This document shows, in pieces, positions 1-35,567 of a DNA stretch of 37,738 nucleotides. The position numbers were made by a program, and so were the translations under genes. This DNA comes from Cochliopodium minus (taxonomy: Eukaryota > Discosea > Himatismenida > Cochliopodiidae). The first letter of the stretch is position 1, and each line of letters begins with the position of its first letter. The DNA is taken from NCBI GenBank assembly GCA_024220525.1, contig JAMYWO010000040.1, forward strand, positions 171,735-209,472, read 5' to 3'. Under the pieces are notes generated by a model, which searched no databases, was not told the origin of the DNA, and saw only the letters and a program-made list of their open reading frames with translations.

Positions 1-9
1 TATTTACAG

Positions 10-1091
10 GCCCTGACATGTGGATGTTGAAAAAAATAGAATTTCCTTCTGACAAAAACTTTAGATATCCAATACCTAGGTAATTTTTTTTTCTGTTGGT
101 TTTTTCAAAAAAACTTTTTTACAAAAAAAAAATTATTGCAGCAGCATCATCGATATTTCTCCATCTTTTTTAAATTTTTTGGGTTATAATTCTCTTAAAA
201 ATTATGATTATGAGAATCTCATTTCTGTTCGCCAACGATTCACTCCTGTTCCCGGAACCAAAAAAATATTGAATTTAAATGTCGAAATAGTTAGTGGATT
301 AAAAACGCCTACTTCTAATAATAATGAACATATTTTCATGAAAAGATCCGATGGGAAATACATACATGTAAATAATTTAATTTAATGTAAAACTTATTTT
401 TTGATTGACTTTTATCAAAAACAAGATTATAACCAACACGACCATACAATTTGTAAAAAAAAACTTTTTTTTTTTTTAAATATCTTGATAAATTTTTTTA
501 GGATGCAAGAACAAAATTACCTAGTAAATTTATTTCTTTTATTTTACCTTTTATTTTAAATTCCACATAGATATGTGCACAATGAATGTAACCAAAGTTT
601 GTTTTGTCAACTTGAATGAAAATGATATCCCCAAATATTTTGATAAATACTCCGACTACAAATATTATTGTGAAAGTTATGAAGAAGTTCCAGATATTGT
701 CACTAAATACTGCAAAGAAATCAAAGTGTTGGATACAAACAAAAACTACTCCTACAACGTACATATATCTGAAAAAAATCTTCCTTTAACTAATCCATCA
801 CCAAATAATCTTCCCACACAAAATTTTATTCAATCAGAAAATATCAATGATTTAGAATCCTCCAATCTCTTTGATCCTGTATCTATTGCTTCAAATGATT
901 TTTCTTTTGACAATTTTGATTTTTCTCCTTCCTCCTCTTCTTCTTTTGAAGCTTTGCTCAATGAAAATAACAAAACTGATGTTAATCCAACAAATAATGT
1001 TAATTTGTTCACCAGTTACAATAATCTGGTTGCAGGATTAGAACATTCTTTCCAATCAAACAATGAAACAGATAATTTTTTAAATTTTTGA
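10..1091 (+). CDS. ZP1: PAS-domain zinc-cluster-family regulator, 5' end outside window
   Basis: Only the PAS-like and C-terminal parts are present. Exons: about 10-79, 142-365, a 27-nt microexon 426-452, 502-517 or so, 571-1091. The first exon holds the PAS start (PDMWMLKKIEFP, then YPIPSS). The next holds SPSFLNFLGY, which is shared with ZP3, ZP10 and ZP14. After the PAS comes the post-PAS block (NVTKVCFV..., YYCESYEEVPDI) and a Ser/Asn/Asp-rich tail ending NETDNFLNF-stop, matching ZP3. The zinc cluster, ribbon and coiled coil would lie upstream of base 1. The in-frame TAA just after YIHV is avoided by splicing at GTAAAT into the 27-nt microexon; ZP14 has a microexon of the same length at the same place. 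Family membership is clear; the role as a transcription factor is inferred from complete paralogs. Confidence 0.85.
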
Positions 1092-1210
1092 TATTTTACA
1101 AAATATTAAATTTTGAAAAATGTTTATTTTTTGAATAGATTTCGATCAGAAATCTCAATTTGATCTTTCAATGACTTTTGATATCTTTTTAAATATTGAA
1201 TATAAAAAAA

Positions 1211-2994
1211 ATGTCAGAGAAAAAGAATTTAAAAGACAAGGATAAGGATATCAAAAAAGATATCATAGCATGTTTAAAATGTCGAGTGAATCATCGAGTA
1301 ATTTTATAAATATAAATAAATTTTTATTTATATCTCAATATTCATCATAATTAGAAATGTGATGGAAAAAGGTAAATATTTATTCTTATTCAATCAAAAA
1401 TAATTGTTTATATGTTGATATTTTGAATAGACCTTGCTATCATTGTATAAAGAGGAAGATAGAATGTGAAAATGATACAAAGAGAAAAGCTGTTGGTAAA
1501 ATGTTTAATAACCCTATAAGATCTATCTTATATCTTTCATAGATACAAAAGAAATTATATTTATTGAAAATTATTTTATTTCAAAAAATATATTTTTTGT
1601 ATAATCTTATAGGAAGGCCAAAAATGACTGAATTGGAGAAAAAAGAAAAGAAATTGAGAAAGGCATCGATTAATTGTGAAATATGTAACACTAATAATAA
1701 AAATACTTACAAATTTTGTTCCAATTGTGGCCAAAAACTGCCAACATTTCAAAATAATTATCGAGATGATGATGATCTACAAAAGGAGATTGAGATATTG
1801 AAGCAAAAAGTGAATGAATTGAATTGTATAATTGATATGGGCAATATTTCAGTATCAAGTAATTTTTCTATACAAAAATATATTGTTAATTGTTGTAATT
1901 CATATATATGCCCAATATAATATGTTTTAAAAAAATATTTTTTTTTATTTCCTCTCACAATATGGAGATTAATTTAACATCAAAAAAAAATAATACAATT
2001 AATATTGAGATATTGGAACATCATTTTAAAGTATAATTTTTAAATTTATTTGAATTGATTTTTTTTTTTTTTAATTTTATTCGTAAAGATCAATCACAAG
2101 ATTCGGATATGTATTTTTTAAAGAAGATAATATTTCCTAAAGAAGAAAATCTATCATATCCCCTCCCATCTTTTTTGATGGAATCATCCAAAGCATTGGT
2201 AGAAATGTTGGGATACACAGAAACAGAATTACACAACACTTATATGCCTAATTTAATTCCCAAAAAGCATTATCACACCACTAGCGAGAAAGACATCATG
2301 TTTGTCAAAATGAAGAAGGATCATTCCATTTGTAAATTTACCTACGAAGAAAATCTTTTTATCAAACATCGTAACGGAAAATATCTTCACTTAATATTGG
2401 ATACTTCTGTTTTTTTGGTAAATTATTTGGTTTTATTTATCCATAAATTTTATTTTTTTTCATTTTATTTTATTATTTTTAAATCAATTTTTTAATCTTT
2501 TAACTTTTTTATTTAAAAAGGACAATAAAACTAAAATTCCCGAATTTGCTAGTTGTACAGTCACCAAAGTTTGCCAGATCTACGAAGAATCAAAAGTTCC
2601 CTCCTACATTTCCCCAACAAGCTTCACCTTCCACGGAGACAGCATCGACGACCTCCCACCCTCCATCAAAAAAAGAATTCAAATTTATTCCCCTAACAAA
2701 ACCAGTGACAACTTCTTCAGCAACTTTACGAAAACAAAACCTGTTAAAGAACCTAAACCTTCCAAGTTTTCTTTTAGAAATTCTTTTTCAAGCAGTCCTC
2801 CTAAGAATTCTCTATCTGGTAGTCCTCCTAAATCTTCTAATTCTTCTAGTTCTTCTTCCTTTCATGTTTCTTCTTCTGGGAATGAGCATGTCTCTCGTTC
2901 TCATGATTATTCTTCTGTTTTTAAGTTTTTTCCAATGTCCGATTTGTCTCTTGGTTATGAATCTAGTGATCTTCACCTCAACACCTATTTTTGA
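1211..2994 (+). CDS. ZP2: Zn2Cys6-zinc ribbon-coiled coil-PAS putative transcription factor
   Basis: Reconstructed exons 1211-1297, 1355-1371, 1431-1495, 1613-1858, 2089-2417 and 2521-2994 give about 405 aa with closing phases. Order of domains: Zn2Cys6 (CLKCRVNHRKCDGKRPC, continuing CxxC to a final C), a KRKAVGRPK motif, a zinc ribbon (CEIC...CSNCG), a coiled coil, a PAS-like core (FLKKIIFP, YPLPSFLMESS, EMLGY, NLIPKKH, HRNGKYLH) and a post-PAS block (TVTKVCQIYEESKVP, FTFHGDSIDDLPP). The tail is Ser/Pro-rich rather than Asn-rich and ends LHLNTYF, a weak version of the family terminus. The last exon has no in-frame ATG, and a longer overlapping frame at 2546-3013 is a shadow. The start ATG follows an A-run and lies only 119 nt after the ZP1 stop. 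Confidence 0.85.
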
Positions 2995-3046: not shown

Positions 3047-4454
3047 ATGTTGAATGAATATAAAGAAAAGAGAGTTGTTGTTGCTTGCCTTGGTTGTAGA
3101 TCTAATCATAAAGTAAATTATCTTCTTATTTTTTAAATAATAGTCCACTTATAATCTTTATCAATATTTGAATTTAGAAATGTGATGGTAAAAGGTAAAG
3201 AATTTTGAAAAGAGAGATTATGAAAGATGAGCTTATATTTTATTATGTTAGACCATGCGGATATTGTTTAAAGAGAAATGTGGAATGTGTTGAAAATCAT
3301 AAAAGAAAAGGATATGGTAAAAAAAAAATTGAAATGTTCAAAGGAAGTTTAATATAGACCCTATAATCCTATCCTAAATTAATTTTGTTGATTAATTAGG
3401 AAGACCTCCCAAAATGGATGGTGAAAAAAGAATTCTCCTCAACAAAAATACATCAGGGGAAATAAATTGTGAGAAATGTCTATCAATGATTAATCAAACG
3501 GATAGATTTTGTTCTCATTGCGGAAATCAACTTCCTCAACCAAAAAATTACAACGAATTATTGATAGAAATTAATTTTTTGAAGAATAAAGTTTTGGAAT
3601 TAACGAAAATAATAGAATTTAGAGGATCTAGGTCAGATATAATAGGTAAAATGATTCAATTTAATAACAGAGGAAATATTTATAAAATATTAAAACCTTT
3701 TAATCTTATTCAGTTCAAGACATGTCAATCATATCAAGAATGAATTCTACTTGTGAAGCAGAATGCATTTTTCCAGTGCCATGTTATGTGTTTGATATCT
3801 CTCCAACATTCCTAAACATGCTGGGATATAATCAAACAGAATTTTCAAATTACTACTATCCTGATTTAATCCACAGAAATCATCACCAAGTAAAATCTAT
3901 CCAAACTTTTTTTAATATTTTTTTTAATTGAAAAAAAAAGGTTATAAATGAAAATTCTTTAAACTGTGAATACAAAGAATTGAAGGGTATTGACCCCAAA
4001 ATATGCTTTGAAGAACAAATCTTTCTAAAAATGAAAAATGGGAACTATCTTTACTGTATCTCCAACTCCACAATATTTTGTGTAAAAAAAAAAAAAAGAA
4101 ACTTTTATAAAAGTTTTTTGAATTTACTTTATTTTAAATAAGGATGCTGTTAGTAAAAATCCCTCTCTTTATTCTATTCGTGTTCAAAAATTGTGCCAAA
4201 TAAACGTAACTGAAGAATCTTTGCCTCCTGCTGGTTTTCCCGACAAATTGACTTTTTATTTGAGTGATCTCTCTGACTTTACTTCTTGTAGTAATACTCC
4301 AACTTCAATCAACATAGACAAATTTTTTGAAAGTAGTAATGTTGACTTTTCATCCAATTTTCCAAAATCTTGTAATGGAACCAATAATAATGTCAGTTTT
4401 AACAGTTTATTTGTTGAGGGATCTTTTGATGTTGATAACTTTTTAAATTTTTAA
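3047..4454 (+). CDS. ZP3: Zn2Cys6-zinc ribbon-coiled coil-PAS putative transcription factor
   Basis: Exons 3047-3112, 3178-3194 (17 nt), 3252-3316, 3400-3645, 3720-3889, 3941-4081 and 4143-4454 close in phase to about 338 aa. The zinc cluster reads CLGCRSNHK / KCDGKR / PCGYC...VEC across three exons, followed by a KRKGYGRPPK motif. The zinc ribbon is CEKC...CSHCG and a coiled coil follows. The PAS part keeps P-x-P-x-Y-V-x-D, SPTFLNMLGY, YPDLIH and KNGNYLY. The post-PAS block is RVQKLCQINVTEESLP with LTFYLSDLSDF. The protein ends DVDNFLNF-stop, close to ZP1. The acceptor before the PAS exon could be 3713 or 3719; both keep frame. The start is the first ATG after a ten-A run, 52 nt downstream of the ZP2 stop. 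Confidence 0.85.
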
Positions 4455-5242
4455 ATAGAAAAACTTTTTAATGTAATAAAATAAAGTTTAATACATATTT
4501 TCTTCCTAAATTGGAGAATTTAATTCTCTACTATTCAATCATTTTCCTTTTCTCCATCACAACCATTCTAAATATTACCCTTTATTTCCTTTTGAACCAA
4601 CTTCTTCTTTGCAAATATTCAAACCTTTGTCTCCTTTCTCATAGTTTTTCTTTTCGTCCTAGTAGTCGTTTGTGATTTTCTCTCTAATAATTAAACTTTC
4701 TGGATTGGTTCTGCGAAGAATCCGTAAATGTTTGCTTTTCCAGTATTTTCCAATTCAAGATCCAACTTTTAAGTCTGAGTTAAAGCGTCTGTTTCTTACT
4801 AAAGCAGGGAAGATGTTCGATTCAAAGTTTAGGAGGAGTTTTCATGAAAAGTCAAACCAAAATTTTGAGATTTTTATCATACTCAATTTCGTTCAATTTG
4901 TTGGTTTCTTTAAACGACCAATGATAAATAATATCCATCCTCTAATATTGTGAAGGTAATCCACATCAATCATTACTTGAGAGGTCTTGCAGGAATTCTT
5001 TTCTTTTCCAGTCTCCAAGAACCTTTTTTTTTTTTTTTTTTCAAGAGCTTCCCAGAAAAACTCGAAATTCTCAATGGAGCTGATAAAGTTGATTATTGAA
5101 ATAGATTTCTTTGTTCTTCAGTTGGGACTTACATTTGATCAAGATTTATTTAAATATTGATAGAAATTGTCAATGTTGAAAAAGAAGCCATAAATATCCT
5201 CCACATATCAATATAAGATTCAAAAAAAAAGTTTTTGATTTA
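4455..5242 (+). other. Non-coding or degenerate stretch after ZP3
   Basis: No convincing gene. A 93-codon open frame at 4672-4953 shows no family motif, lies on a less AT-rich patch and has no spliceable partners that I could see. The opposite strand has stops in every frame. It may be a relic of an older coding sequence, but nothing identifies it. A T-tract occurs near 5022-5042. Confidence 0.4.
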
Positions 5243-5452
5243 ATGAAGTCAGAAAAAAAAAAAATGAAAAAAAAGTTTTATGTGTCAAAAGATATAGAAA
5301 ATGATGATTGCAATACTTTTGATGCAATATATGTCAAAAATGATAAATTAGAAGATCTAAAGAAAGAGATAGAGAAAATACGACAACTGAAATCTGGTGA
5401 ATATATCATAAAGTATAAGGAAGAGGGAAAATCATTAATCTCAATATTGTAG
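5243..5452 (+). CDS. Short ORF, possible ubiquitin-like header of a Crinkler-type gene (or its first exon)
   Basis: A 69-codon frame with a Lys-rich start. The segment FDAIYVKNDKLEDLKKEIEK resembles the xF-x-V...(V/L)xxLKKxI pattern of the ubiquitin-like header at the N-terminus of many Crinkler proteins (family knowledge). The match rests on pattern only. It sits 214 nt upstream of the SAM-headed Crinkler gene. The DNA just after its stop (5461-5640) is a degenerate copy of intron and exon sequence of that gene at about 6340-6480, so this may be the surviving 5' end of an earlier Crinkler copy, or an alternative first exon. A complete gene of only 69 residues is less likely. Confidence 0.4.
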   Translation: MKSEKKKMKKKFYVSKDIENDDCNTFDAIYVKNDKLEDLKKEIEKIRQLKSGEYIIKYKEEGKSLISIL

Positions 5453-5460
5453 AGATATCT

Positions 5461-6480
5461 TCTAATTTCTCACATAATATTTAATATTAAGAATAAGATC
5501 CTAAATCCACAGATTAAGCAGGCGATAAAATTATTTTCTTATAAATTAATCAAAAAGATCCTATTAACCAAAAATATCATTTATTTATTATTTCACTCTG
5601 AAATAGCAATATTTTTGCATCAACAAACTTATATATTTCCATGAATTTAAATTTTTAAAAAAAAAAATGAAGACCAATCTTAGAGAATCTCTTTGGGAAT
5701 TTTTAGAGAGAATTAATTTGGGTCAGTATTATAATATAATAAATAATCAAGGATTCATCGAGAAAGAAGAATTTTTGAGTCTGATCAAAGAAGAGAATTT
5801 GAATGAAATGAATTTCAAAATTAAAGACAAATTGAGAATATTAGAAGAAAAAATGGTTAAAAAAATAAAAATATATATATATTTTTCACCTTTTCTTCCA
5901 TTAAAGAAATTCAAATATAATGAAATAATTAATAATGGAAAACATAAAGAAGTGGTAGATTTTATCAATAACATTGATAGTATAGACGAAAATGATAAGA
6001 AAAGATATATTGTCAGTTTGATTGATAATAAATTAACAACAAAAGAAAGATTAAGCAAGATAGATGATTTTTCATTGGATAAAATAGGGATCGCAATTGG
6101 TGATAGAATCTCAATTTTCGATTCAATAAAGGTAAATAAATTAATATATTATTTGGTTCAAACAATTAATGTTGTATATCAAATATCTCACTAAATTTTT
6201 ATATTTGACCAAAAATTAATATAAGCGAAGTGATAAAAAATCATTTTCTCATAAATAAACAATAATATCCTTTATAAATTATCATAGCAAGTATCATTAT
6301 CAAGAATAATTTTCTATTGTTTTTATATTTTCTATATTTTTTCTCACAATAATATTTGATATTACAGATCCCAAATCCACAGATCCAACAGATGGAGGTA
6401 ATAAAAAATTATTTTCTCATAAATTAACCAAGAAAAAATAAATAATATTTTTGCATCAAATAACTTATATCTCAAAATTT
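5461..6480. repeat. Degenerate repeated segments flanking the SAM exon
   Basis: About 5467-5640 and about 6341-6480 share a run of similar words in the same order: CTCACA-TAATATTTRATATTA, GATCCYAAATCCACAGAT, AAATTATTTTCTYATAAATTAA, and AATATTTTTGCATCAA with ACTTATAT. A third partial copy of the ATTTTCTCATAAAT part lies near 6230-6260. The second copy overlaps the small predicted exon at 6368-6397. This points to an old tandem duplication of an intron-exon unit. Confidence 0.6.
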
Positions 6481-9400
6481 CTAAAACATTTGTTGGGCTT
6501 GATTGATAATTATCACCTTAAAAATTATTTACATTTAGTGCATAGCTTAAAATTTTTGATTTATTGAATTTTTTTTTTTTTGAAATATTTAGGATATAAA
6601 CAAAAGCCGAAAGGTAAATCATAATAAAGAATTTTAACCTTCATTCATATATGAATTTTCAAAATTATCATTTGAATCAAATAACTTTAATATATTTTTC
6701 GATATTTCTTAATTTGATTATTTATATCTATAAATTAAAGATAAAATTTTTCTCATTTAAATCTTATTTATAAAATATAAACTTATAAATGATCGTTAAA
6801 GATCAAAATTAATCAATTTATATACAATTGATAAACTTCTTTGAACCTAAAATATTTATTTATTTTATTAAAAATATCAACTTATGATATTTTCATTAGT
6901 CATATTTAAAAAATTTTAAGTAATTATCCTAATTAAATTTATTTTATTAATAAAATCACAATTTATCAAAATAGGATGAAATAAAAGAAATTCCTCAAAT
7001 AATCCCAAATGATTTTTTTGAAAAATTGAGAGTGGAAAATATGTTGGAGCTCAGTAAAAAAACAAACAGTTTTGCAACAGTAAAGAAGTTAGCTGAAGCA
7101 TGGGTAAAAAATAAAAATAGATTAACGTTTAAAGAAGGCAAAGAAGTGAATACATTTGCAGATACAATTTCAGGACAAGAAGAATGCATTTGGAATGTGA
7201 AAATATTTGATTCTATTGATCAGACAATCCATGAAACATCCATATCAAATGTTGATAGAAATCCAGCTTATTTAATCATTCCTGATCATCCTGGAAAGGG
7301 AAAAACAAGAATCTTGGGAGAGATAATTAGATCGGTCATGGATAACACTCTAGAAAAAAATTTTGAAAAATACCATCTTAAAAATCGAGGAAAATGTTCT
7401 ATGAATGGGTCATTTGGTTTGATGATCACCTTCAACGATCTTTTGAAGAAAACCCTCTATCAATTAGTCAATGATAAACATGAAGTAGCAAATACAAAGG
7501 AAATATTCAAGAGTGTTTTAGAGATAAATATTCATAACATAGATCTTGCTTGTAGAGCTGCATTTTGGTATTATTTGATTTTATTTCTTTTTTAAATTAT
7601 TTATTATTATTTCTTTTAGTCATTTTTTCCACTTTACTTCCGGAAATGGAATGAGAACAATTAATGTGGGGGATTTCAGAGAATTTTTGGAAAGATTTGG
7701 GTGGGTTTTTCTTCACTACAGATTTGAAGACTTTATACTTGATATTTTGGAAGATTACAAATTGACTCACAATATTTCTGATCCCATCTATTTTTTTTTG
7801 GGAATTGATGAACTTGGTGATCATCCAGCTTATTCAACTATTTTGGGCTTCATAAATAATATTCAAATCAAAAGAAGTAAAAATAATACTTTTTATTTCA
7901 TTCATTATTTTATTCATTCTATGTATTTATTTTGGTTTTTATTTATTTCTATTAATTTATTTATTTTCATATTTTTCTATTAATTTCATTTTATTGAAAT
8001 TTTAATTTCTTTTATTATTTTTATTATTGAAATAAAAATTCTTAGGAATTTTTTGTAAAAGTTCCAACCAAGGGGGGTGACCAATTAATTCCGATTTTTA
8101 CTGCATTACAACCAAAAATATTTAAGAGTGAATTCCAAGTTAATAAAACACCAGGAGCAGGGAGAAAGTTAATTTGGCTCAATCTTGATCCGATGAATTC
8201 ACTTGACAGAATAAAACTTGCAATAAAGCAAGAAAGCTTTGGACAGTTTGCATTTATTGCATATAACCTTGCGGATGGGATTTGGAGACACATTGAAAAG
8301 ATAAATTTAAATATTGAAGGTATAAAAAAAAAACTAAATAATCGTGAGATTGAATATAAGGATGTTTTCATTGAAATGTTGGATATCGGGTTTACTTATG
8401 GTGATGTCTTTCTACCCAATTCTTTTTGGAAGTTTATTGCAATCCCTCTCTTGAAACTTTCATGCCATTTGAACGACAGTTATGATGGAACAAGAAAGCA
8501 TCAAGATGATCGAGAAGAATACTCTGTGAGGGGAATTGTTTCTTCTGGTGTTTTGAGATCAATCGAGTTTTCTCTTGTTCCTAAATCTCAAGAAAAAGAC
8601 TTGTTGTTGAAAGACTGCACCATCACCGCTCTTACTCTTTTCAATTTTGGAAAGAAGCTTGTCAAAAATTTTGAAGAGGGACCAAATCATCTACTTGGTT
8701 GCTACCTGATCGAAATGGTGAAAACTACATCTAATTTAGACAATGACAAAGATTTTGAAAAGTTTGTTTTGTATCTTCTTGCAATCCAGTTACACATGAG
8801 AGCTTTTCTTATCAATTTTGATCTTCCTGCAACATCTTACCCCAATGCGATTCCTTCAATTGCTTCTCTTTCTTCTTGTAGATATGTACCATTTAAGAAA
8901 CTATTTCATGATTTTTGTGAGGTTGGAGGAGGATGGAATGAAAAATCTCTTGATTTCGATATTTTACTTTCTGAAAAAGGAGCTCCAATTACTTTTAAAG
9001 TAGATTTGGATCAAAAAATTTATTTACAAAGAAAAGTTCAAAGAACCTATTTAACAAGATTTTCTTCTGAAAAGGACTTTTCTTTGAACACACTTTACTC
9101 TTCTTCTCATTCCTTTGAAAAGGGAATTGATAGTTTATTTGCTCTACTTTCGTCAAAAAAAAAGATTTATTATGTCATGATCCAATCAAGAAATCGACAC
9201 AATAATTCGGAAACTATTGGGAAAATTCCAAAATCTAAAGTAAATGAAGATTTAACAAATGCACATCAACAACAAAAAGAAATTTCTGAAGTCATTACTC
9301 AACTGGAATGTCCACAAACTGGAAAGAAATTTCCAAGTAATTTTTTAATTTTTAAAAGAAAAAATAATTAATATTTTCATTTTTTCCAAAAGAAATGGAT

Positions 9401-9907
9401 AAAACAAACACCATTCTTCTCTACATTACATACAAAACTGTTGACATTGAAAATTGTGGTAAATTTAAAGATAAATTTCTCTGTGTATGTAAAGTTGAGC
9501 ATCCTAAAATCAATCAAATGATAGGAAATTTCAATCTTCCTTTGTACAATGATCATTTCAAAACAGTGTGCGCTATTTTAAATTGCAAAAATACACCGAA
9601 AATCAAAGTTCCAATGGCTTTTTATTGTGTAGAACATTTTCCAACTGCAACGTTTGATAAAGTTCCTTTTCTAAAAATGTATCAATTGGTCTCAATTTCT
9701 GGAGAACCTTTGTGTGAATGTTTCAGAACTATTTGGATGGTTTTGGAAGCAAAGATTCCAAACATTGCAGAATTTATCAAAATCGAAATTCTTTATTTTT
9801 TGACAAGGAAGATAGCATTAGATTTGAATGAACAAAATAGAGAAAAAAAAGGGAAGAGAAAAAGAAAGGAAAAAGATGAAGAATACGTATTGGAAGAAGA
9901 AGATTGA
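5667..9907 (+). CDS. Crinkler-type protein: SAM-like header, P-loop NTPase, REase-like domain, C-terminal NLS
   Basis: Reconstructed exons 5667-6131, 6368-6397, 6593-6613, 6975-7567, 7620-7876, 8062-9336 and 9393-9907 keep frame and give about 1051 aa. The two tiny exons are least certain. Residues about 1-60 look like a SAM domain (LWEFLERINLGQYY), with a second SAM-like stretch near 125-155 (DKIGIAIGDRISI). A P-loop HPGKGKTRIL lies at about 7284-7310, a GLMITFNDLLK strand follows, then FTSGNG and a Walker-B-like FFLGIDELGD near 7790-7820. The C-terminal part has an acidic strand (FDILLSEKG), then IQSRN and ILLYITYK, like the D...(Q/E)xK restriction-endonuclease fold reported for Crinkler-type effectors, but with Arg where Lys is expected. 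The end carries a KKGKRKRKEK basic cluster, a plausible nuclear-localisation signal. A nucleic-acid-targeting effector or conflict protein acting in nuclei is inference. ATG follows ten A residues. Confidence 0.7.
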
Positions 9908-10305
9908 ATAGATGAAGATCATGATGGAAGATCAAAAGAATTTAAATAAAAAATTTATCATATCTTTTTTTTCTTTTTAATCCTAAATTATAAATTAAAT
10001 AAAATAAAATTCTGTTTGGCATCTTACAAACCTTCTTGAATTTTATACGTTAAAATTACACTAATTACTCTTTCTTTCATCCTTTTTAATTTCTCATAAA
10101 CTCCAAATCTTCTTATCATTTGATCAAAAAGGAAATATAAAATAAAAAAAAAATTTAGGAAAGGGTGATAGATTAAATGCAACAATTTCTTAAATAATAC
10201 CATATTAATGAATAATACAAATTCATCTCAATCATAGCAATAATAAATTGAATAATAAAAATAATAACAATATATTATTGAATAAGAGCGAAGATAAGAT
10301 CCTAA
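9908..10305. other. AT-rich intergenic stretch after the Crinkler-type gene
   Basis: No ORF, RNA gene or repeat that I can support. It holds several AATAAA-like words and A-runs near 9950-10010 that could serve 3'-end formation of the gene upstream. Confidence 0.5.
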
Positions 10306-11029
10306 TTGAAAAATGATGTGCACACTAAAAAAGTTGGAATTGAAAAATACTTTAAAGAGATTGATTTGGGTGGATATACTTTGTTTATAGCCCAAATATT
10401 GAAAGAGGAAGGAGATGAGGAGAATATCACCACCAAAAAACTTGCGAGGATCATAAAAAATGAATATCAAGATTTGTTCCAAATCGCCACTGTTAACGAT
10501 ATGTCATTCTCTGAAAAGGAGAAAAATATCCCACTTCTTGAACGTATTCTAATTACAATAAAAATAGATATAAGGACGTTTTATGTGTTGAAAAAACAAG
10601 ATTCAAGTACCTCAAATCGAAATATGCCAAAAATAATATAGAAGACAATTATTTCTCATTGAAAATCGATGAACATGACGATGAGGGAGATCGTATGATA
10701 GTGATAATAATGATAATTATATCATCTTTGATGATTCTCGCCCAAAACAACAAAATTTTAAAATTATAGAAAATAAGGAACCTCCCATCAAAGAAGAAGA
10801 TATGATGATATTGACGGAGAAGAATATTTAGAGGAGGAAGATACAAGCAAATATATCAACGCCAATAATATTCGTGGAAATATCGAGGAGAATAGTGTGT
10901 TCATCTCCACCCAGGATCCCTTGGAGGATACCTGGATGATTTTTATGAGATGATCTGGCAAGCAAAATCTCAGATTTTCATCTCCCTATCTTCCTTAATC
11001 GAGAACAACAAATCCAAAATGTAAGCCAC

Positions 11030-11740
11030 TTTCAAAAAAAAAATATTTAATTTAAAAATATCTGCCCGATATTGTTATAAATTCTTTTATCCTCTTATAA
11101 TAACAAGATAGAATATCCATAACTTTTTTAATCCCATTGTAAAATCAACGAGATATATCTTCATTTATGGATAGATAAATTGGAATAGAGAATGATATAA
11201 AAATAATGCTAAATAAATTATATACCTTCGATTGAAAGAAATATTCATTATCTCTCTCAAGATTTTAATTTTGAATGGTATATTCTCTTTCATTTTACTC
11301 GATTTTGAGGTGAACATATATGTTCCACGTATTTTAACATTTGCAAAAAAATAATAATATGATTGATATAAGATATGTATTGCTCTAAATTTTAACATCT
11401 TGTTACTATAAATCCATCAAACCTGATACACTCTTCCTCTTATTTTATTTTTATTTTATTTGATTAAAAATTTATAGAGTGGGTTTGTAAAAGTTAAACA
11501 TTTATTGTCGATGATAGTCAATTATAATAAGGAGATTTTTTTTGTTCCCTCTCAAATTTCTCATCATATTAAATCTTCTTCTATATCATAAGGAGAAATA
11601 ATTTTTCCTTTTTATACAAATGTTTTTTTCATAAGTGAATATTGGAATCGCATTAAAATGCAAATAATTTTTCGTTATGTATTATTTTCAGAATTGAAAG
11701 AATATTCATTTTTCACTAAACATATGAAATAATTCGAATT
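11030..11740. other. AT-rich stretch between phosphatase fragments
   Basis: Probably intronic or decayed phosphatase sequence. A short open piece near 11637-11730 begins EYWNRIKM, which could be the remains of the C-x-x-YWP region, but this is too weak to call. No other feature seen. Confidence 0.35.
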
Positions 11741-12002
11741 TTTTGATGATAAAATTTTTTCTTTCGAATTTTTCCATTATAATTCCACTAAACAAAATAT
11801 CATATCATTCATTCAATCTCTCTTTTTCTTATATATTTTTTTTTTACATTTTCTTCAATTTTGGTTTGAATTTTGGCCCGAAAAAGATAAACTCATTAGT
11901 ACAAAAAATTATAAGATTTCAATCAAAGATGAATTTAGCGAGAGAAAGGACATTCGTATTTTGCAAGTTACAAGTTCCCACAACAAATCAAGAGATGAAG
12001 AA

Positions 12003-12121
12003 ACTTTTAAAAAGGAACTTTTTTTATTTTTTATTTTTTTATTTTTTATATTTTTTTATTTTTTTAATTTTTTTTATTTTTTTTATTTTTTTTATTTTTT
12101 TTATTTTTTATTTTTTTTAAT
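12003..12121. repeat. T-rich (TTTTTTAT)n microsatellite in an intron-like position
   Basis: Imperfect repeats of T5-8 with single A interruptions between two phosphatase-like coding pieces. Slippage-prone; assembly length here may be unreliable. Confidence 0.7.
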
Positions 12122-12275
12122 AAGAATGGCCTGATAACGAAGCACCCAAATATCCTTCCAACGTGACCGAAATATACACAAATTACAAAGAAAAATGAAG
12201 TAAATTTGGATTCCAAAAACTAAAGATATTCGTTTTAAAAAATTTAAACATTATTATTTGAACTAAAAAAAATGA

Positions 12276-23361: not shown

Positions 23362-24271
23362 ATGAAATTGGTCTTTCCTATTGAATGGAATTCCAAAACC
23401 ATAGTACCTTCTTATATTTTAGGTAAACTTTACAAGAATATTTAAAGTTTTTAAAACTTAATTATTTAATTTTTTAAATAGAAACATCTCAAAGCTTCAC
23501 AAACTTGCTCGGTTATGAACACATGGAACTCAACAATTTCTCCTTTCCCAATCTCATTCCTGCAAAAATGAAAAAAACTTTTGCACAAGAACACTACAAC
23601 TGCATTTTCAAGATAGAGAAAGTGAAGGGGTTGATGTGTCAAAAACTTTTCCACCAAAGAGATTTTTGTGTGAAACACACCGATGGGCATTTAATAAAAA
23701 TGTTTGCGAACATAAATATTTATCTCGTAAAAAAATTTTTAATGAAATTGAAACTTTAATTTTAAATAATTTTTAATTTTAGGATCCTTACACATCCCTA
23801 CCTTCCACTTCTACTATTCATGTTCTTGATGTTTGTTGTGATGTTGAGGATAGTTCGATGTCCAATAATATCTTACCAAAGGTTCACACTCTCACTTTCC
23901 AATGTGGTGAAAATGATCCTATTCCTCCTTTCATCAAAGAACACTCTGAAAGTTCCTTTAATAATAACATTAATAACAATCCCAACAATAATTCCAACAC
24001 TAGAAATAATAACAACAATAATAATAACTTAAATAATAACAACAATGCTTTAAACAATTTTAATAATGTAAATAACATAAACATAACTTATAATAACAAT
24101 TTTAACAATAGTAATAGTATTATGATTAATTCTGATTTTAATTTAATCATTGAAAAGGAAATTGAGAATGTGGGAGATGTTTTCAACTCTTTGAATGAAA
24201 ATAACTTTCTTTCTACTTCCATTGATCTCAATTTTTCAATCAATGATGAAAATTTCTTCACTAATTTTTGA
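22796..24271 (+). CDS. ZP8: Zn2Cys6-zinc ribbon-coiled coil-PAS putative transcription factor
   Basis: Exons 22796-22940, 23002-23106, 23167-23283, 23342-23422, 23482-23726 and 23783-24271 close to about 393 aa. The zinc cluster is in one exon (CLNCRKNHKKCDKKKPC, CAKKKIEC), with KRKPTGRP across the first intron. Further parts: ribbon CEKC...CIECG, coiled coil, PAS (TDLWFMMKLVFP, VPSYILE, FTNLLGYEHMELNN, HTDGHLIKM, INIYLV), post-PAS HVLDVCCDVED and LTFQCGENDPIPP. The tail has Asn-runs and ends NDENFFTNF-stop. The DNA-binding half and the promoter-proximal 120 nt are copied almost exactly in ZP9. Confidence 0.88.
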
Positions 24272-24384: not shown

Positions 24385-25072
24385 AGTGAAGGTTTTTTAC
24401 GATTCACCAATCTCAATTTCACAGAAAAATTAATCACTTAATTCATTTTGAAAATATAAAATAAAAAATTGAAAGAAAAAACTGGAAATAAATTAAAACC
24501 CCAAAAATGATTGAAGATTTGAGAGAAGATGAGATAATGGCTTGTTTGAATTGCAGAAAAAATCATAAGAAATGTGATAAAAAGAAACCTTGCACCAATT
24601 GTGCCAAGAAAAAAATAGAATGTATTATAAATCAAAAAAGAAAGCCAACAGGTAAAGATATTTCAAGATTTCATAAAGAAATTGTTAACATTCTTCATTT
24701 ATAACTTTAAAGGAAGACCAGTAAAATACTCAGATAAAAGATTGAGATATGGAATTATTATTTGTGAGAAATGTAACTCTAAAAATGAGATGATTGCAAA
24801 ATTTTGTATTGAATGTGGTATGAAAAATAATTTATATATTCCCTCCTTATAACTTTTTTTTCATTTCCTCAAAAAAGGATATAAAATATCAGATCAAATG
24901 ATCTGCAAAATAAATGAATTGAGCAAAGAAAATGAATTTTTGAAAAGAAAAAATCAAGAATTAAGCGATAATCTTCAACTCAGAAAATCATTGAGTAAAT
25001 TAACTATAATTAACATTTTTGATAACTAATATAATTAATTCCATTCAAACAGGCACAGATTTGTGGTTTATG
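24385..25072. repeat. Direct repeat copy 2 (promoter plus DNA-binding half of ZP9)
   Basis: Counterpart of 22674-23361; one C/T difference observed over 688 nt, located in an intron. Confidence 0.9.
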
Positions 25073-25966
25073 TTGAAATTGATCTTTCCAATCAATGGAA
25101 AAATTGATGGAATAATGCCTTCATACATTATGGGTAAACTTTTTGTAAATAGTTGTTAATGAAAAACACTTAATAATTCTTAATTCTTTCTTAAATTAGA
25201 AACATCACAAAGTTTTTCAAATTTGTTAGGTTATGAATACATGGAACTTAACAATGTCTCTTTCCCTCGTCTTATCCCTGGAAAGATGAGTATGAAACCA
25301 ATTCGCACTCAATATGATCCGGTTTTCAAAATTGAGAAAGTGAAGGGGTTGATGTCCCAAAGACTCTCTCATCAAAGAGACTTTTATTTGAAACACACAA
25401 ATGGACATTGTCTCAAGCTTTTTGCAAACATAAATATCTATCTCGTAAAAAAAAAAGAAAAATATTATTTATATTACTTATTAAATAGAATAAAATCTGA
25501 TGTTTTGAATGAATTAATTTAGGATCCTTTCACATCTCTTCCCGCCACTGCAACTGTTCACGTTCTAGACGTTTGTGACTTTGTTGAAGAGAAATACATT
25601 CCCGATCATTTTTCAAAGCCTCACACTCTCACTTTCTATTGTGATGAAGGTATTGTTCCTCCATTCATCAAAAAACATTCCAAAGAATACATCAACATGA
25701 ATTACAACCCCAACACTCTTGTTAATAACAACTATAACAATACTTTAAACAGTTTTAATAATATAAATAACATAAACATAACTTATCATAACAGCTTCAA
25801 CAATAGCAATAGTAATATTGACAATTCTGACTTTAATTTAATCATTGAAAAAGAAATAGAGAATGTCGGAGATGTTTTCAACATACCCAAAGAAAATAAC
25901 TTTCTTTCTACTTCCATTGACCTTAATTTTTCGATGAATGATGAAAATATTTTTAACAATTTTTGA
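24507..25966 (+). CDS. ZP9: Zn2Cys6-zinc ribbon-coiled coil-PAS putative transcription factor, near-duplicate of ZP8
   Basis: Exons 24507-24651, 24713-24817, 24878-24994, 25053-25133, 25200-25444 and 25523-25966 close to about 378 aa. The zinc cluster, GRP motif, ribbon and coiled coil are identical in sequence to ZP8. From the PAS domain onward it diverges: MLKLIFPINGK, PSYIME, SNLLGYEYMELNN, LIPGKMSMKP and a shorter tail. Parts of the tail stay close to ZP8 (DFNLIIEKEIENVGDVFN and NFLSTSIDLNFS). It ends NDENIFNNF-stop. It therefore probably reads the same DNA site as ZP8 through an altered sensor or dimer domain (inference). Confidence 0.88.
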
Positions 25967-26311: not shown

Positions 26312-27997
26312 ATGAATGTGGCTTTTGATTCCAACATAATGGATACAGTGGCTTGCTTGAATTGCCGAAAAAATCATCGTAAATGTGATAAACAAAAACC
26401 ATGCAGCAATTGCGTGAAACATAAGATAGAATGTATGATTAATCCAAAGAGAAAACCGATTGGGCGTCCAACACCACAAAGTAAGAGAAAAATAAATAAG
26501 AATTCAAGAATTATAAAGAGATTACAAAATATAATAACAATCAATTCCCTTTTTACAATGATTAATCGTTCAAAATAAACATATTTTTTTCTCAACAAGA
26601 TAATAATATCAAAAAGACAAGATTCTACATAGATATAGAATTAAAATGTGAAAAATGTGATAAGGAATGTGATGTTGATTCCAAATTTTGTTCTCAATGT
26701 GGATCCAAGCTCCCAGAGCCTGTGAATTATAAGATGGATCAGCTAATAATGGAAAATGAAATGCTGAAGATGAAAAATGAGATGTTGATGAAGAATATCA
26801 TTCCAAATAAAGAAGAAAGTAAGTATAAATAAAATTTATTTTATGATGTATTATTCATAATGTGAAAGATGGAGAATCTCCCATACCCATATAATAATAT
26901 ATAAAGCGAATATATAACGCATATTTTTGAATTATAATCAATTTTATAATTTATCATTTATTTTTGTAAAGAAATGGAAGATATGTGGATGATGATCAAG
27001 ATATTCTTCCCCAAAGATGCAAAGGGAGTCTATCCACCACCAGCATTCATCCAAGGTAAAAATATTGAAAACATTATTTTTTTATTAAAAATTAATAAAT
27101 AAAATAAAATGAATTAAATTTAAGAAACATCACCTAGCTTCTTAAAAGCTTTGGGTTACAATTCTTTGAACAACTTTTATTTCCCTAAACTCATCGCCAA
27201 CAAAATGCAACAAAACGTGGACGAAAAAGAAATAAAAATAGGATTCAACTTGGAGAGGGTCAGTGGACTCATGGTAAACAAGCTCCTATTCAAGCAAGAG
27301 TTTTATTTGAAGCAACAAAACGAAAAATTCATGCACGTAGATATAAACATAACCTGTTACATTGTAAAAAAAAAATTTATTAATTATTGTGAGATTTTGG
27401 TTACAAAATTTATTAATTATTTCAATATTTTTAAGTAAATAAAATTTATTTTAATATTTTTTAGGATATAAAATTTTTGTATTTATATTTTTTTTTTGAA
27501 AGGAACCAATGACTCATTTACCCACTTTTGCCACTTTGAACGTAGTAAAATTTTATGAGAAAGACATTGAAGAATGCAATGTTCCCTCCAAATACATCCT
27601 CCAAAAAGATTTCACCCTTTTTCTCGACGCCAATGACGACATCCCTCAATTCATGGGAGTCAACCCCTTGAAGAACATTAACAATCCTAACCTCGTCTAC
27701 CAGAAAAGAAAACTTTTAGATTCTCTTAAAAAATTTAGCTTGAATCCCAACAATAATAACACTGGGAATATCAATATTAATAGTAACTTTAATTTGAATT
27801 TGGACAAGGATTTCTTTAGTTTGACTCAGGATATCTTTTTGAGTGACAACACTGTTTTTAGTTCAGAGTTTAACATCAACAATTTCCTTTTGAATTCTTC
27901 CACTGCCTCCAATAAGGATGGCAAGAGAGAGAATATTGGTAATGAGAATGTTGGGAATGATGGTGAAGATTTCTTTTCCAGTTTTTTGAATTCTTAA
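26312..27997 (+). CDS. ZP10: Zn2Cys6-zinc ribbon-coiled coil-PAS putative transcription factor
   Basis: Exons 26312-26480, 26600-26818, 26972-27055, 27125-27363 and 27503-27997 close to about 401 aa. The zinc cluster lies in one exon (CLNCRKNHRKCDKQKPC, CVKHKIEC) with KRKPIGRP directly attached. The second exon has no ATG but holds the ribbon (CEKC...CSQCGSKLPEP) and a Met/Glu/Lys coiled coil. PAS: EDMWMMIKIFFP, YPPPAFIQE, SFLKALGYNSLNNF, FMHVDINITCYIV. Post-PAS: TLNVVKFYEKDIEECNVP and FTLFLDANDDIP. The terminus is FFSSFLNS, an off-pattern version with three extra residues. A decoy TTAGGAT acceptor lies at about 27461-27467; it mimics the family junction but breaks frame. Confidence 0.85.
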
Positions 27998-28105: not shown

Positions 28106-29825
28106 ATGGAGGATAATAATTTGAATAAAGAAAGGAGAGATATAATAGCTTGTTGTAATAATTATCATATTTTCCTAAATTTTTAAAACCATTTTTTAAT
28201 ATACAAGTGAATTGCAGAAAGAATCACAAGAAATGCGATGGATTGAAACCTTCTTGTACATATTGCATACAAAGAAAATTTGAATGTATTACAGATAACA
28301 AGAGAAAACCAACAGGAAGACCTCCCAAATCAAAAACAGAAGAAAATCAACCCAAAAAATTGAAAAAAACAAAGAATACCACAAAAGAAAACAAAAAATC
28401 AATCAAATTTGAATTCAAATGTGATAATTGCAAATCTGTTCAAGATACTATCGCCAAATTTTGTAATCAATGTGGTTCAACTATGCCTTTATCTATCGAA
28501 AGTGAGAATTTACAATTAAAGAAGATGGTTTTTGATCTCAAAGAAGAAAATAATGAATTGATCAAAAGAAACAAAGAATTGACGAGAATCATTGATATCA
28601 AAACTAACAGTAATTTTAAAAAAATATTCAAAAAAAAAAAATCTTAAAATATAATAACATAATACAATCATAATTTGATCTCATTCTCGAATATAATAAA
28701 GGAATTATAAAATAAAAAGAAAAAGAGGAAATATATTATAAAATTATAAAAAGTTCCTCAAAATTCCTCAAAAAAATTATTTTTAGATTTTTAGATTATT
28801 TTTTTCTTTTCAAAGATGAGATTTGGGTTATTGCAAGAATAATAGTTCCTAATGATGGAAAACCACCATCACATCCAATCCCCTCATTCATAATGGATTA
28901 TTCAGAAGGATTTAGAAATTTGGTAGGATATGAACAACTGGACAATCTTCCACTTAATGATTTGACTCCCAATGCAGTAATCCAAAAGATGAAATGTTAT
29001 AATCAAGATAATAAGAAATTTGGATTTAAAATAGAAAGACACAAGGGGACAATCAACAAAAAAATAACGAATTATCACAACACTTATCTAAAGTATTTCT
29101 TTTTTTTTAATAATCTTTCAATTATACTAAAAATTCTTTTCTTTTCTTTTTTTAAAAAAGGCATGCTGATGGACATTGTGTATATTCTAACTTATCATTT
29201 TATTTTTAATTATACCTTTTTCTTTTTTTAATTCTAGATACATTTTAAATCCCATTTCACATTACATTTGGATTCAAAAACTTGCGTTCCAAGTCTTGTT
29301 TCATTGAAAGTGCTCGAAATAATTAATCTTCATTTAGACGAAAGCGAGATCGTTTTCGATCATCCTCCAATAATGACTTTTCATCTGGGAGAAGACGAAG
29401 AATTGCCTGTAAATTTCTTTTAAAAAATTATTAATGTTGATAAAAAAGTTATTTATTTCAACAATAAGGATTTTTTTAGCCGAAACTCTCATTTCACTAG
29501 TAAAAATACAGGTTATCTAGTCCCTTTTAGCTCCACAAATCCTCCAAGATTCCATAATAACATTCTTATTAATAACAACATAAACAACCATAACATCATA
29601 AACAACCATATAACAAATAATAACTCCATTCCAAACAATACCAATCTTACCTTTGTAAACAAAACAACAAATAATGTGAATAATACAAGTCAGATTCACT
29701 TAAACAATGATTTTTTACGTTCTCCTATTTGTGAATCTTCTCCTTCTCCAAATAATTACATTGTTCCTTTAAATTCTTACAATTTTGAAGGTTTTGATAC
29801 TGATTCTTTTTTCAATTTGTTTTGA
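28106..29825 (+). CDS. ZP11: Zn2Cys6-zinc ribbon-coiled coil-PAS putative transcription factor
   Basis: Exons 28106-28154, 28208-28609, 28816-29092, a 19-nt exon 29161-29179, 29238-29408 and 29469-29825 close to about 424 aa. The first intron cuts inside the first C-x2-C of the zinc cluster. The next exon carries CRKNHKKCDGLKPSC, KRKPTGRPPK and ribbon CDNC...CNQCG. PAS: EIWVIARIIVP, PIPSFIMDYSEGFRNLVGY, FKIERHKG, and the 19-nt exon HADGHC. Post-PAS: SLKVLEIINLHLDESEI and MTFHLGEDEELP. The tail is His/Asn-rich with NNxNNH repeats and ends DTDSFFNLF-stop. About 235 nt of the ribbon exon match ZP12 and ZP13, and the last 257 nt match ZP12 with one difference seen. Confidence 0.87.
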
Positions 29826-31497: not shown

Positions 31498-33184
31498 ATG
31501 GAAGCAAATTTGAAAAAAGAAAGAAGAGATATTATCGCTTGTTGTAATTATTACTCATATTTTTCCAAAAAAAATTAACCTGAAGATTTAAAGTGAATTG
31601 TCGGCAACATCACACGAAATGCGATGGATTGAAACCAAAATGTTCATATTGCATACAAAGAAAAGTGGAATGTCTCACAGATAACAAGAGAAAACCAACA
31701 GGAAGACCTCCCAAATCAAAAACAGAAGAAAATCAAACCAAAAAATTGAAAAAAACAAAGAATACCACAAAAGAAAACAAAAAATCAATCAAATTTGAAT
31801 TCAAATGTGATAATTGCAAATCTGTTCAAGATACTATCGCCAAATTTTGTAATCAATGTGGTTCAACTATGCCTTTATCTATCGAAAGTGAGAATTTACA
31901 ATTAAAGAAGATGGTTTTTGAATTGAGAGAAGAGAATAATGAATTGATTGAAACAAACAAAGAATTGATCAAAAATCAAATCAGTAAATTATTTTTTTTC
32001 AATATTGAGGAACATAATATAATCAATAAATAATTCCTCATATTTTAAATTAAATCCTCGAAACTAATAATTATGGATTTATCATCCTTTAACAATCCAA
32101 AAATTGAAATTATATTTAAATAATAGATGAAATTTGGGTAATGGCAAGGATTATCCCTCCCAATGATGGAAAACCACCACCATTTCCAATTCCTGCTTTC
32201 GTAGTTGATTATTCAGAAGGATTCAGCAAATTATCAGGATATGAACAACTGCACGACTTTCCCTTCCACGACTTGATCCCTAACATCATTCTCCAAAAAA
32301 TGAGGAGGTTTCATCAAGAAGGCAAAAGACCCGATTTTAAAATAGAAAGGCACAAGGGAATCATCAACAAAAAAATAACGAATCAAGAAAGTAATTATTT
32401 AAAGTAATAACCTTTTTTGTTAATTTTTTTTTTTTTGAATTTTTAATTTTTTTTTTTCTTTATAAGACATGCTGATGGACATTGTGTAAAATCAAAATCC
32501 AAAAATTTTTTAACTTAATTTTTTTAGTTGATTTATGTTTTTTTCTTTTTAATTTTTTCTTTTAAATTTAAGATTCATTTTGAATCTATTTTCACTTTAC
32601 ATTTGGACCCAATTACGTTCATTCCCTATCTCATTTCTTTGAGAATTCTCAAGATCATCAACCTTCATTTGGAAGAGAGTGAAATAATACACGATGGTCC
32701 ACCAACAATGACATATCATCTTGACGAAGACGAAGAACTTCCTGTAAAACTTTTAAAATTAATTTTTCATTAATAATTTTTTAAATATTTATTAAAAAAA
32801 TATTCTTAATAGGTATTTTTCCACCCTAATCCTCGCTATACAAGCAAAAACTCTGGTTTCTTCCATCCTCTCCCTTCTACTCCTAAATTCAACAATAATT
32901 TCCTTATTAACAATAACATCAACAACCACAATATAATAAACAACCACATTGTTAATAATGGCAGCAATGGAATAAATTTATTTAATGGTCCTAATAATAA
33001 CTATAATAATGTAACTTTTGTAAATAAAACAACAAATAATGTGAATAATCCCAATCATATTCAGATACACAGTGATTTTTTACAGTCTCCTATAATTGAG
33101 TCGTCTCCTTCTCCAAATAATTACATTGTTCCTTTAACTTCTTACAATTTTGAAGGTTTTGATACTGATTCTTTTTTCAATTAG
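31498..33184 (+). CDS. ZP13: Zn2Cys6-zinc ribbon-coiled coil-PAS putative transcription factor with clipped terminus
   Basis: Exons 31498-31543, 31594-31983, 32127-32403, 32467-32485 (19 nt), 32573-32743 and 32813-33184 close to about 424 aa. The DNA-binding exon matches ZP12 closely (CRQHHTKCDGLKPKC, KRKPTGRPPK, CDNC...CNQCG). PAS: EIWVMARIIPP, PIPAFVVDYSEGFSKLSGY, FKIERHKG, HADGHC. Post-PAS: SLRILKIINLHLEESEI and MTYHLDEDEELP. The tail keeps YIVPLTSYNFEGFDTDSFFN but stops there: a TAG at 33182-33184 replaces the TTG of ZP11/12, so the final LF is missing. Confidence 0.86.
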
Positions 33185-33363
33185 TTTTTGATATTTTTCA
33201 AATAAATTTTGTATTTTAATTTATCTCTTTTTCAAAACAACAATTGGAAATCGCTTTCAATTTGACTTTAAATCAATGAAATATAATTCACTTTAATTTT
33301 AGTTTTCTGAATCTTGTTTTGTTCAATAAAAAATATGAAAGAATATCAAAAATAAAAAAAAAA

Positions 33364-35567
33364 ATGAATTCAAAAGAAAAAACAAAACTTCCAAGCAAAA
33401 GAGATGTGGTTGCTTGCAGTAATATATCCAAATGAACAAAAAAATTTCCATAAAAATTTTTAATCACTTTTCAAAAAATTTAATCCAAGTGAGTTGCCGA
33501 AAGAACCATAAGGTATATAAAAAAAAAATATTTGGAAAATAACTGAATAAAATGTTCTAAAAATTCAAATAAAGAAATGTGATGGAAAAAGGTAAATTGG
33601 ATTCAAAAGATTTTATCAATATAAAATTGATTTTTTATTGTTATTTAGACCATGTTCATATTGTGTAAAAAGAAAAGTGGAATGTGTAGAAAATGAAAAA
33701 AGAAAAGCTCATGGTAAAATATCATTTGAAGATAATCATTCATCCTCCCTTATTAATTTATTATCATTGTTAGGAAGACCTAAAAATCCAGAAGAATTAA
33801 AGAGATTGAAGAAGGAAGGGATAATTTGTGAATCATGTAAAAATAGGCAACAATATAATGGTAAAATAATAATCCCATTGAATTTACTTTGAAATACGAA
33901 CAAAGTTAATTCAAATATATAAATTTGATTCGATTTCACTGAAAATAATTATATTATTTTATAAAAAAATTAAATTTTAAAAGCGAAATTTTGTTCTGAG
34001 TGTGGTTTTAAATTCCTCCAAAACGCAAACAAAAAAACCAAAGTGAACGTAGATCCAAGAGACAAAGAAATAGAGTCACTGAAAAGAAAGATCGAAGAAA
34101 TGACCAAAGTCTTCGAGTACAAGACCCTTAATCGTAAAAAAAAAAAAATAGAAAAAATTCATTAAATCATCTTTTAATTATTTCATCTTTTTTTTTTAAA
34201 TGAAAGCTTTTGGGAATGAAATGATGATGGTCACAAAAATATTTTTTCCAAAAGAAGAGAAGATTACGTATCCCTTCAAATCTTTCGTTTTGGGTTACAA
34301 TTTTTTACATTTTTGGAATGTTTTAATTTTTTTATTTATTTTTTTAAAAATTTATTATTTATTTTTTTTTTTTTTACCTTGAATATATTTTTTATTTATT
34401 TTTTTAAAATTAATTTTTTTTAATATATTTTTTAAAAGATGTTTCTGCTTCGTTCCAAAATTTATTGGGATACAATAGTCTTAAAAATATGTTCTATCCG
34501 AACCTCATTCACAAAAGACATCACCACGTCATGGACAAGAAAAAATATAAGTTCACCTTACAAAGATCTGATGATGTTGTAATGACAAGTTTGGTTTTTA
34601 CTTCCAATGTTCTATGGAAACAAGCTGATGGAAATTATGTTCATGTAAATCGATCTATTTTTTTTTTTCTAATTAATCAGTTATTAAAATTAAATCATTT
34701 TTCAATTTAATCATTTTTTTTCAAATAAAAAAAAATTCAAAAAGGCCATTGTACAAAATAATATGTATTGTGTAACAAATTTTTTAAATCTTGTTTTTGC
34801 AAACTTTTTTTTTTTCTTAACAATTATTTTCTTAGGATACTGATACTGGATTTCCAAGTAAATATTCCATTTTTATTTAAATTTTTTTTTTTAAATGTTT
34901 TAAAACTGTTATTTATTTTTTTAAAAAAGGTTTCAACGTTATCAACGTGAAGAAAGTGGTTAATATTTATCCTGATGACAGCCAAATGCCCCCTCGTTTG
35001 AATCATCTCATGAACATTACCATCGTGTGCAATACCAAACACCAGTTGGCTGATTATATGAGTAGATTCACTGCCTATCCCATCCTTGAAAAACCTCTAA
35101 ACAATAATCATAATATTGATAATGTCAATTTTTATAATAATTTTGATAATAATATAAATGTAAATAATAATTTCTTTGTTGACAATAATGTTAATGATAA
35201 TTTCAATAATAATATTTTGGATGTCAATAGTTTGGAAAACAGCAACAACATCAATTTGTTTAAGAACAACTGCAGTTATCAAGATCTAAACATTTTGAGC
35301 ATTTCTTCAGAGGATTTAACCTTTTCCACTCCCAACATTGATTTCTTTTCAAACTGTGTAAATCTCAACAATAACAATAATCCTTCTTCTTCTTCTTCTT
35401 GTATGAATAATATTTGTAATCTTTCTAACAATTTCCCCAAAAACAATTTTAACCCTAACAGTAACTTGTCTTCCAGTAACTCTTTGATTGTACCAATATC
35501 TAATGACACCAATATATCTTTGTTTGAGAGTGAGTTGGAAAGCGAAAATTTGTTTACCTTTTTCTGA
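33364..35567 (+). CDS. ZP14: Zn2Cys6-zinc ribbon-coiled coil-PAS putative transcription factor, most divergent right-hand copy
   Basis: Exons 33364-33418, 33490-33512 (23 nt), 33575-33591 (17 nt), 33649-33713, 33774-33860, 33984-34133, 34207-34293, 34439-34644, 34745-34771 (27 nt), 34836-34857 (22 nt) and 34930-35567 close to about 458 aa. It combines both zinc-cluster intron positions known in the array: inside the first CxxC as in ZP11-13, and around KCDGK as in ZP2/3. Motifs: SCRKNHKKCDGKRPC, KRKAHGRPK, CESC...CSECG, coiled coil, MMMVTKIFFP, YPFKSFVL, FQNLLGYNSLKNM, YPNLIHKRHHH, QADGNYVH, post-PAS VKKVVNIYPDDSQMP. The Asn-rich tail ends ESENLFTFF-stop. PAS exons resemble ZP1 rather than its neighbour ZP13. 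One donor is GTTACA. Confidence 0.85.

Follow-up and report, generated by a model that had tools for sequence, protein, structure and literature searches.

Zinc-cluster (Zn2Cys6) transcription factors are usually termed fungal-specific. Their patchy distribution outside fungi is unexplained, the scenarios set out in the accessible part of PMC5415576 being (i) a fungal birth followed by transfers or (ii) an ancient origin followed by losses. In Amoebozoa, where Zn2Cys6 proteins have expanded outside fungi, 22 such factors were counted in Acanthamoeba castellanii and three in Dictyostelium, but arrays joining a ribbon, a coil and a PAS domain are not described in the portion of the source available to us (PMC4053784). 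The closest described plan is that of the AcuK/AcuM pair (Ert1/Rds2/Gsm1 in yeast), gluconeogenesis activators that carry an N-terminal Zn2Cys6 cluster and a PAS domain in one protein and act as homo- or heterodimers; according to the available text, changes in their PAS impair them and the PAS of yeast Rds2 works in AcuM (PMC12719309). The window analyzed here (37,738 nt of Cochliopodium minus, assembly GCA_024220525.1, contig JAMYWO010000040.1, positions 171,735 to 209,472 of the forward strand) carries, between positions 15 and 35567, 14 paralogous units (g00 to g13), all on the plus strand and arranged head-to-tail, most of which share this plan and add a zinc ribbon to it.

We consider it probable that these genes encode lineage-specific, arrayed, PAS-sensing dimeric zinc-cluster transcription factors, whose fronts (from the zinc cluster to the coil) are homogenised by recombination while their sensors diverge. 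In Gal4 and Put3, the cluster is followed by a basic linker and then by a coil. As in such Gal4/Put3/Leu3-type factors, the zinc cluster found here matches by sequence the structures 6o19, 6e33, 3coq, 1ajy and 2er8, but a ribbon lies between cluster and coil, and there is no fungal middle homology domain among the Pfam matches examined. The basic helix-loop-helix PAS factors (HIF2a/ARNT, CLOCK/BMAL1, AHR) have two PAS domains compared to one here, differ by their DNA-binding domain and share about 6-14% identity with the present proteins.

The window has a GC content of about 25% (A+T roughly 75%) and belongs to a genome of 44.65 Mb in 598 scaffolds, with short introns and the standard code. 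The 80.65% A+T of Anaeramoeba ignava (PMC11550330) does not fit the value found here, a comparison that bears on this species and not on its whole genus; a universal rRNA motif of 16 bases matched nothing. Gene models were built for each unit with a custom spliced aligner that permits GT-AG introns only, using as template the ninth full gene and later a profile built from the 12 complete copies; a few introns (in g04 and g11) were placed differently between alignment runs. An earlier note on this DNA, made from the sequence alone, had reported 14 plus-strand tandem paralogs combining a zinc cluster, a GRP motif, a ribbon, a coiled coil and a PAS domain in one protein, and the models agree on both points. 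Twelve units are complete and have, within one reading, a Zn2Cys6 cluster, a KRKPxGRP basic motif, a CxxC...CxxCG ribbon, a short leucine-rich coil, a PAS domain and an N/S-rich tail, in this order; GRP is kept in 11 of these 12, g06 having GIQ instead, and most of them show a short D/E-LP motif between PAS and tail. Their alignment scores (447-553) compare with maxima of 28 (12 reverse complements), 28 (six stretches from elsewhere in the window) and 37 (12 block shuffles) for 30 controls, a comparison that favours the units since the profile contains them. Scores of 84-476 were obtained for 33 places outside the window that are absent from the profile, pieces at gaps scoring lowest. Among the two incomplete units, g00 begins inside the series and its front half is missing because an assembly gap of N lies directly to the left of the window. 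The other, g03, has only coil, PAS and tail, without zinc cluster and ribbon; since a near-copy bearing a front (C7:248071), with the beginning of a g04-like gene behind it, is found at C7:248-250 kb, the sequences suggest that g03 lost its front secondarily. The array is broken between g02 and g03 by about 9.5 kb of other genes (about 4.46-13.98 kb).

The gene structure is directly established for g09 by one full transcript: the EukProt protein P0001, derived from a Trinity transcript, equals the g09 model over 401 of 401 residues. The modules of this gene therefore share one mRNA, which settles for g09 whether they are joined, as the earlier note had asked of transcript data; in the 13 other units, the exon joins are inferred by homology. 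Three further EukProt proteins belong to the family: the shortened P0003 corresponds, as judged by eye, to the gene at C7:198161, the shortened P0004 matches the gene at C7:202387 at 100%, and P0002 is close but unequal to the member at C40:147643, again by eye. Relatives were sought by profile searches of 5.8 billion proteins, with queries limited to at most 100 words; one of these searches missed P0001 although the query contained it, and thus they overlook true relatives. No transcript of the 13 other window units was found in protein searches of this limited sensitivity, which is weak evidence of their silence or absence.

The multi-sensor regulator that had been proposed is supported by the zinc cluster, the PAS fold, the coil and the acidic-aromatic C-terminus. 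PF00172 is matched at E 0.1 or better by all 12 complete models and, on single exons, reaches 44.6 bits for g09 and 27.7 for g04 against a cut-off of 21, which places the cluster in the Zn2Cys6 family. Behind it lies a basic motif of consensus KRKPxGRPxK, presumably a putative AT-hook-like element. The four cysteines of the putative ribbon are invariant in the 12 complete members; it is confidently modelled in the predicted structure, and DZR is matched at E 0.1 in 10 of the 12 models. Structure prediction, which the earlier note had recommended, gives a PAS fold and thereby membership of the PAS superfamily; one PAS glycine is invariant in the family.

Two features were not part of the first reading: a conserved acidic-FF C-terminus and the mosaic divergence of the genes. 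The motif [DE]x0-2[FYIL][FL] occurs in the last 12 residues of 13 of the 14 window members (all but g01) and of 22 of 25 others, this count omitting eight of the 33 outside models whose in-frame extension is short or runs into a gap or another frame. Random 12-mers from the tails would give 1.8 of 14 and shuffled ends 7.0, and the observed 13 were matched in 0.1% of 2000 shuffles. In sequence, this conserved C-terminus resembles an acidic-aromatic activation motif.

The fronts are homogenised in two gene groups. Between g07 and g08, a block of 98-100% identity (about 22.70-23.36 kb) takes in introns as well as the 5′ flank and reaches about 20 nt beyond the coil/PAS intron (23284-23341); synonymous change affects 0 of about 54 sites in the front and 51 of 100 in the PAS half. 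The same contrast, although weaker, is seen among g10, g11 and g12, whose ribbon and coil are nearly alike, whose zinc part is intermediate and whose PAS halves are far apart. Because all 12 complete genes have their coil/PAS intron in phase 1 and within three columns, a PAS could be exchanged at this intron without breaking the frame. Among 42 models, 741 of the 861 possible pairs had enough codons to be examined by Fisher tests; six have a half with a proportion of synonymous differences (pS) of 0.36 or less, and the contrast is seen in four of the six, which come from two gene groups (p 7e-15 to 1e-6). Furthermore, trees of fronts and of PAS halves, from which g00 and, among the 47 places known for the family, four pieces with low scores were omitted, then four of 42 rows with a short or missing half, place C40:147643 differently, and the approximately unbiased (AU) test supports this displacement on the PAS side (p 9e-5).

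Several observations weigh against homogenisation by recombination, and some of them would also be expected from plain tandem duplication in which purifying selection acts more strongly on the front, involving neither recombination nor cassette exchange. Over all pairs, fronts are somewhat better conserved in protein than PAS halves (median proportion of nonsynonymous differences, pN, 0.40 vs 0.47); in a recent pair on C7 (211/213 kb), both halves are equally diverged (p 0.55); and the block shared by g10-g12 is a single exon, the preceding first intron having diverged. However, the contrast lies at synonymous sites in g07/g08 and g10-g12, and also in the introns and 5′ flank in g07/g08. Since selection at the protein level does not hold synonymous sites, introns or flank, this explanation is weakened and we regard it as rather unlikely. 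Among the other adverse points, tails are alike only between g10 and g11, that of g12 not being homogenised, and in the C7 pair at 199/200 kb, which has a different breakpoint, the contrast is confined to roughly the first 140 nt (p 0.08 overall). Nine pairs lie beyond the Bonferroni line, five of them saturated and set aside, and one in the opposite direction; the pair test is anti-conservative, because saturated pairs pass this line, one of them oppositely directed. Only two gene groups of the window are young enough for the test. The tree groups were named after the trees had been seen and their bootstraps are unsettled; moreover, the front data do not reject C40:147643 standing with its PAS relatives (p-AU 0.152), which is one of three alternative groupings that the front tree does not reject (p 0.144, 0.152 and 0.29). 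On the side of the domains, the predicted structure models the zinc cluster at low confidence (block pLDDT 45-67), and the ribbon falls below the curated Pfam cut-offs on the two exons scanned.

The exact identity of the g07 and g08 fronts could also stem from short-read assembly. Near-identical fronts would then be partly an artefact, one copy being filled in twice, as could happen in a scaffold with long N gaps and one N at 13991, and as the exact identity of the g07/g08 block over hundreds of bases would allow. The g10-g12 fronts, in contrast, resemble each other at 95-97% and carry differences of their own, and the breakpoint differs in the C7 pair at 199/200 kb, so that an artefact seems to us quite unlikely.

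Where measured, the PAS halves are under purifying and not diversifying selection (dN/dS, the ratio of nonsynonymous to synonymous rates, 0.18-0.27). This bears on two other explanations. The first, a decaying relic array that is mostly non-functional, would fit the front lost by g03, the lack of a zinc cluster in four of the 33 outside models and the 13 of 14 window units for which the word-limited searches found no transcript; it is very improbable given the open frames in 12 of 14 units, these dN/dS values and the transcripts of g09 and of two C7 members. The second, a self-recognition locus, was raised in the earlier note; its members would differ from one individual to another, and it could be imagined from a tandem array with recombination and diversified halves, but dN/dS below 0.3 in the pairs measured leaves this idea unsupported and, in our view, scarcely credible.

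That these genes form a remodelled offshoot of fungal AcuK/AcuM (ERT1/RDS2) had also been suggested and is improbable. An insertion in EF1A marks fungi and animals, and the two EF1A copies of the present genome lack it, the host being probably no fungus. No AcuK/AcuM-like protein appears among the matches of the word-limited protein searches, no sequence link was found, and the ribbon is an addition relative to AcuK/AcuM. These factors have a few paralogs in fungi, compared to dozens in arrays here, and the term zinc ribbon does not occur in the accessible part of the review (PMC12719309). What stands of the suggestion is the general plan, an N-terminal Zn2Cys6 cluster with a C-terminal PAS domain. 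In its favour, changing a PAS glycine of AcuK/AcuM to alanine impairs function, according to the part of the same review available (PMC12719309), and the invariant PAS glycine found here might correspond to it, this correspondence being a guess. PF24990 (PAS_13), tentatively taken to represent the AcuK PAS, matched nothing in the genome, but its control matched an archaeon and the result is not usable.

Returning to arrayed zinc-cluster sensors with homogenised fronts, the activities are read from the domains. Arrays of the family occupy three or more scaffolds, where tandem duplication would create new members. In each protein, (i) the Zn2Cys6 cluster may read a short GC-type half-site, (ii) the GRP basic motif may add an AT-hook-like contact in the minor groove, (iii) the ribbon may stiffen or lengthen the DNA-binding front, (iv) the coil would pair two subunits, (v) the PAS would sense a ligand or a partner, and (vi) the tail, disordered, N/S-rich and ending in the acidic-FF motif, would recruit the transcription machinery. 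Recombination between neighbours would re-copy the front (zinc cluster, ribbon and coil) up to about the coil/PAS intron, the PAS half staying distinct; neighbouring proteins would thereby share a DNA address and a pairing surface and differ in their input. More tentatively, the fixed coil/PAS intron may serve cassette exchange, one front (and sometimes the tail) being re-copied beside diverging PAS sensors so that new signals join existing regulons, a possibility that we find doubtful although worth stating. Shared fronts with different sensors could wire many signals to the same genes, and the mosaic makes it testable how signalling inputs are redirected to target genes already in place. That such a mosaic confers an advantage is likewise conjectural.

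The family extends well beyond the window. P0001 has 83 exon matches in the 44.65-Mb genome, and PF00172 has 59. The 33 further places, modelled in fetched stretches, comprise eight on C40 to the left of the window, 20 at C7:198-250 kb, three on C308, one on C201 and one on C12, giving 47 places with the 14 of the window, several of them partial. This number, for one zinc-cluster family in a probable non-fungus, is a strong data point on the occurrence of these factors outside fungi. The 28 outside members of C40 and C7 have all their exon matches on the plus strand; recovery of C40:120513 began only at the coil/PAS junction. Four outside models (C7:211356, C7:213127, C7:218583 and C12, L026 1401-2650) have the ribbon, coil and PAS, or most of them, without zinc cluster and could act as non-DNA-binding pairing partners. 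Apart from the EukProt members, the profile searches gave P0005, an ENA protein of 155 residues with zinc cluster, ribbon and coil, and P0006, a zinc-cluster protein in whose sequence no ribbon is visible. The earlier note did not recognise the architecture as described; consistent with this, no named relative was found in these word-limited searches, and no paper on a ribbon with zinc cluster and PAS was found by title or abstract in the literature searched. Other zinc-cluster genes of the genome, namely three scanned open reading frames (ORFs) of C110 and one of C336, are laid out differently.

Features of the window (positions counted from its first nucleotide)
Feature	Position	Strand	Basis or remark
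g00, PAS half and N/S-rich tail, front lost in gap	15..1091	+	spliced model
g01, complete, 405 aa, 5 introns	1211..2994	+	spliced model
g02, complete, 340 aa, 6 introns	3047..4454	+	spliced model
Array interruption by other genes	4460..13980		SAM domain 5607-6194; dispersed-family ORF 8046-9371
g03, coil, PAS and tail, second intron 14216-14299	13995..15131	+	spliced model
g04, complete, 334 aa	15221..16731	+	spliced model
g05, complete, 422 aa, 13 introns	16908..19139	+	spliced model
g06, complete, 539 aa, GIQ for GRP, long N-rich tail	19662..22560	+	spliced model
g07, complete, 393 aa	22796..24271	+	spliced model
g07 block 98-100% identical to g08	22704..23363	+	5′ flank and introns included
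g08, complete, 378 aa, front half identical to g07	24507..25966	+	spliced model
g09, complete, 401 aa, identical to P0001	26312..27997	+	spliced model and transcript-derived protein
g09 Zn2Cys6 cluster, CxxC-x6-C-x5-CxxC-x6-C	26354..26434	+	
g09 GRP basic motif behind cluster	26462..26470	+	
g09 zinc ribbon CxxC...CxxCG	26647..26703	+	
g09 coil/PAS junction intron, phase 1	26819..26971	+	
g09 PAS exons, introns 27056-27124 and 27364-27502	26972..27580	+	
g10, complete, 424 aa	28106..29825	+	spliced model
g10 front block, one exon	28203..28502	+	95% identical to reference copy 29951-30250
g11, complete, 418 aa	29852..31405	+	spliced model
g12, complete, 424 aa	31498..33184	+	spliced model
Front block	31589..31888	+	97% identical to reference copy 29951-30250
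g13, complete, 458 aa, 10 introns	33364..35567	+	spliced model

Inside the array interruption lie a SAM-domain ORF (5607-6194, SAM_1 E 1.5e-6) and, between g02 and g03, the ORF 8046-9371, which matches no Pfam family but has, itself included, 16 exon matches genome-wide, some of them stop-broken; the adjoining ORF 6975-7595 weakly matches nSTAND3 (E 0.06). The single unknown base at 13991, where g03 begins, may mark an assembly joint. To the right of the array, towards the scaffold end, coding exons with Sel1 repeats occupy 35717-37459 (E 1e-14 at 37181-37456, weak at 35717-36118).

Elsewhere in the genome, two minus-strand matches of 24-26 bits were found at C7:288-290 kb, and C110:124000-131500 (L027) carries minus-strand tandem Zn2Cys6 ORFs with a different linker, one of the three scanned weakly matching PAS_9 (E 0.07). 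An ORF that reads as protein tyrosine phosphatase-like (L025 3374-4327) lies close to the single family member of C201. The two EF1A copies (L030 and L031) are diverged; for L030, the 120 matches listed among 8000 proteins scored comprise two EukProt proteins at 94-96% and the rest at 54-71%, those named among them being Pygsuia biforma (66%) and Leishmania tarentolae (54%).

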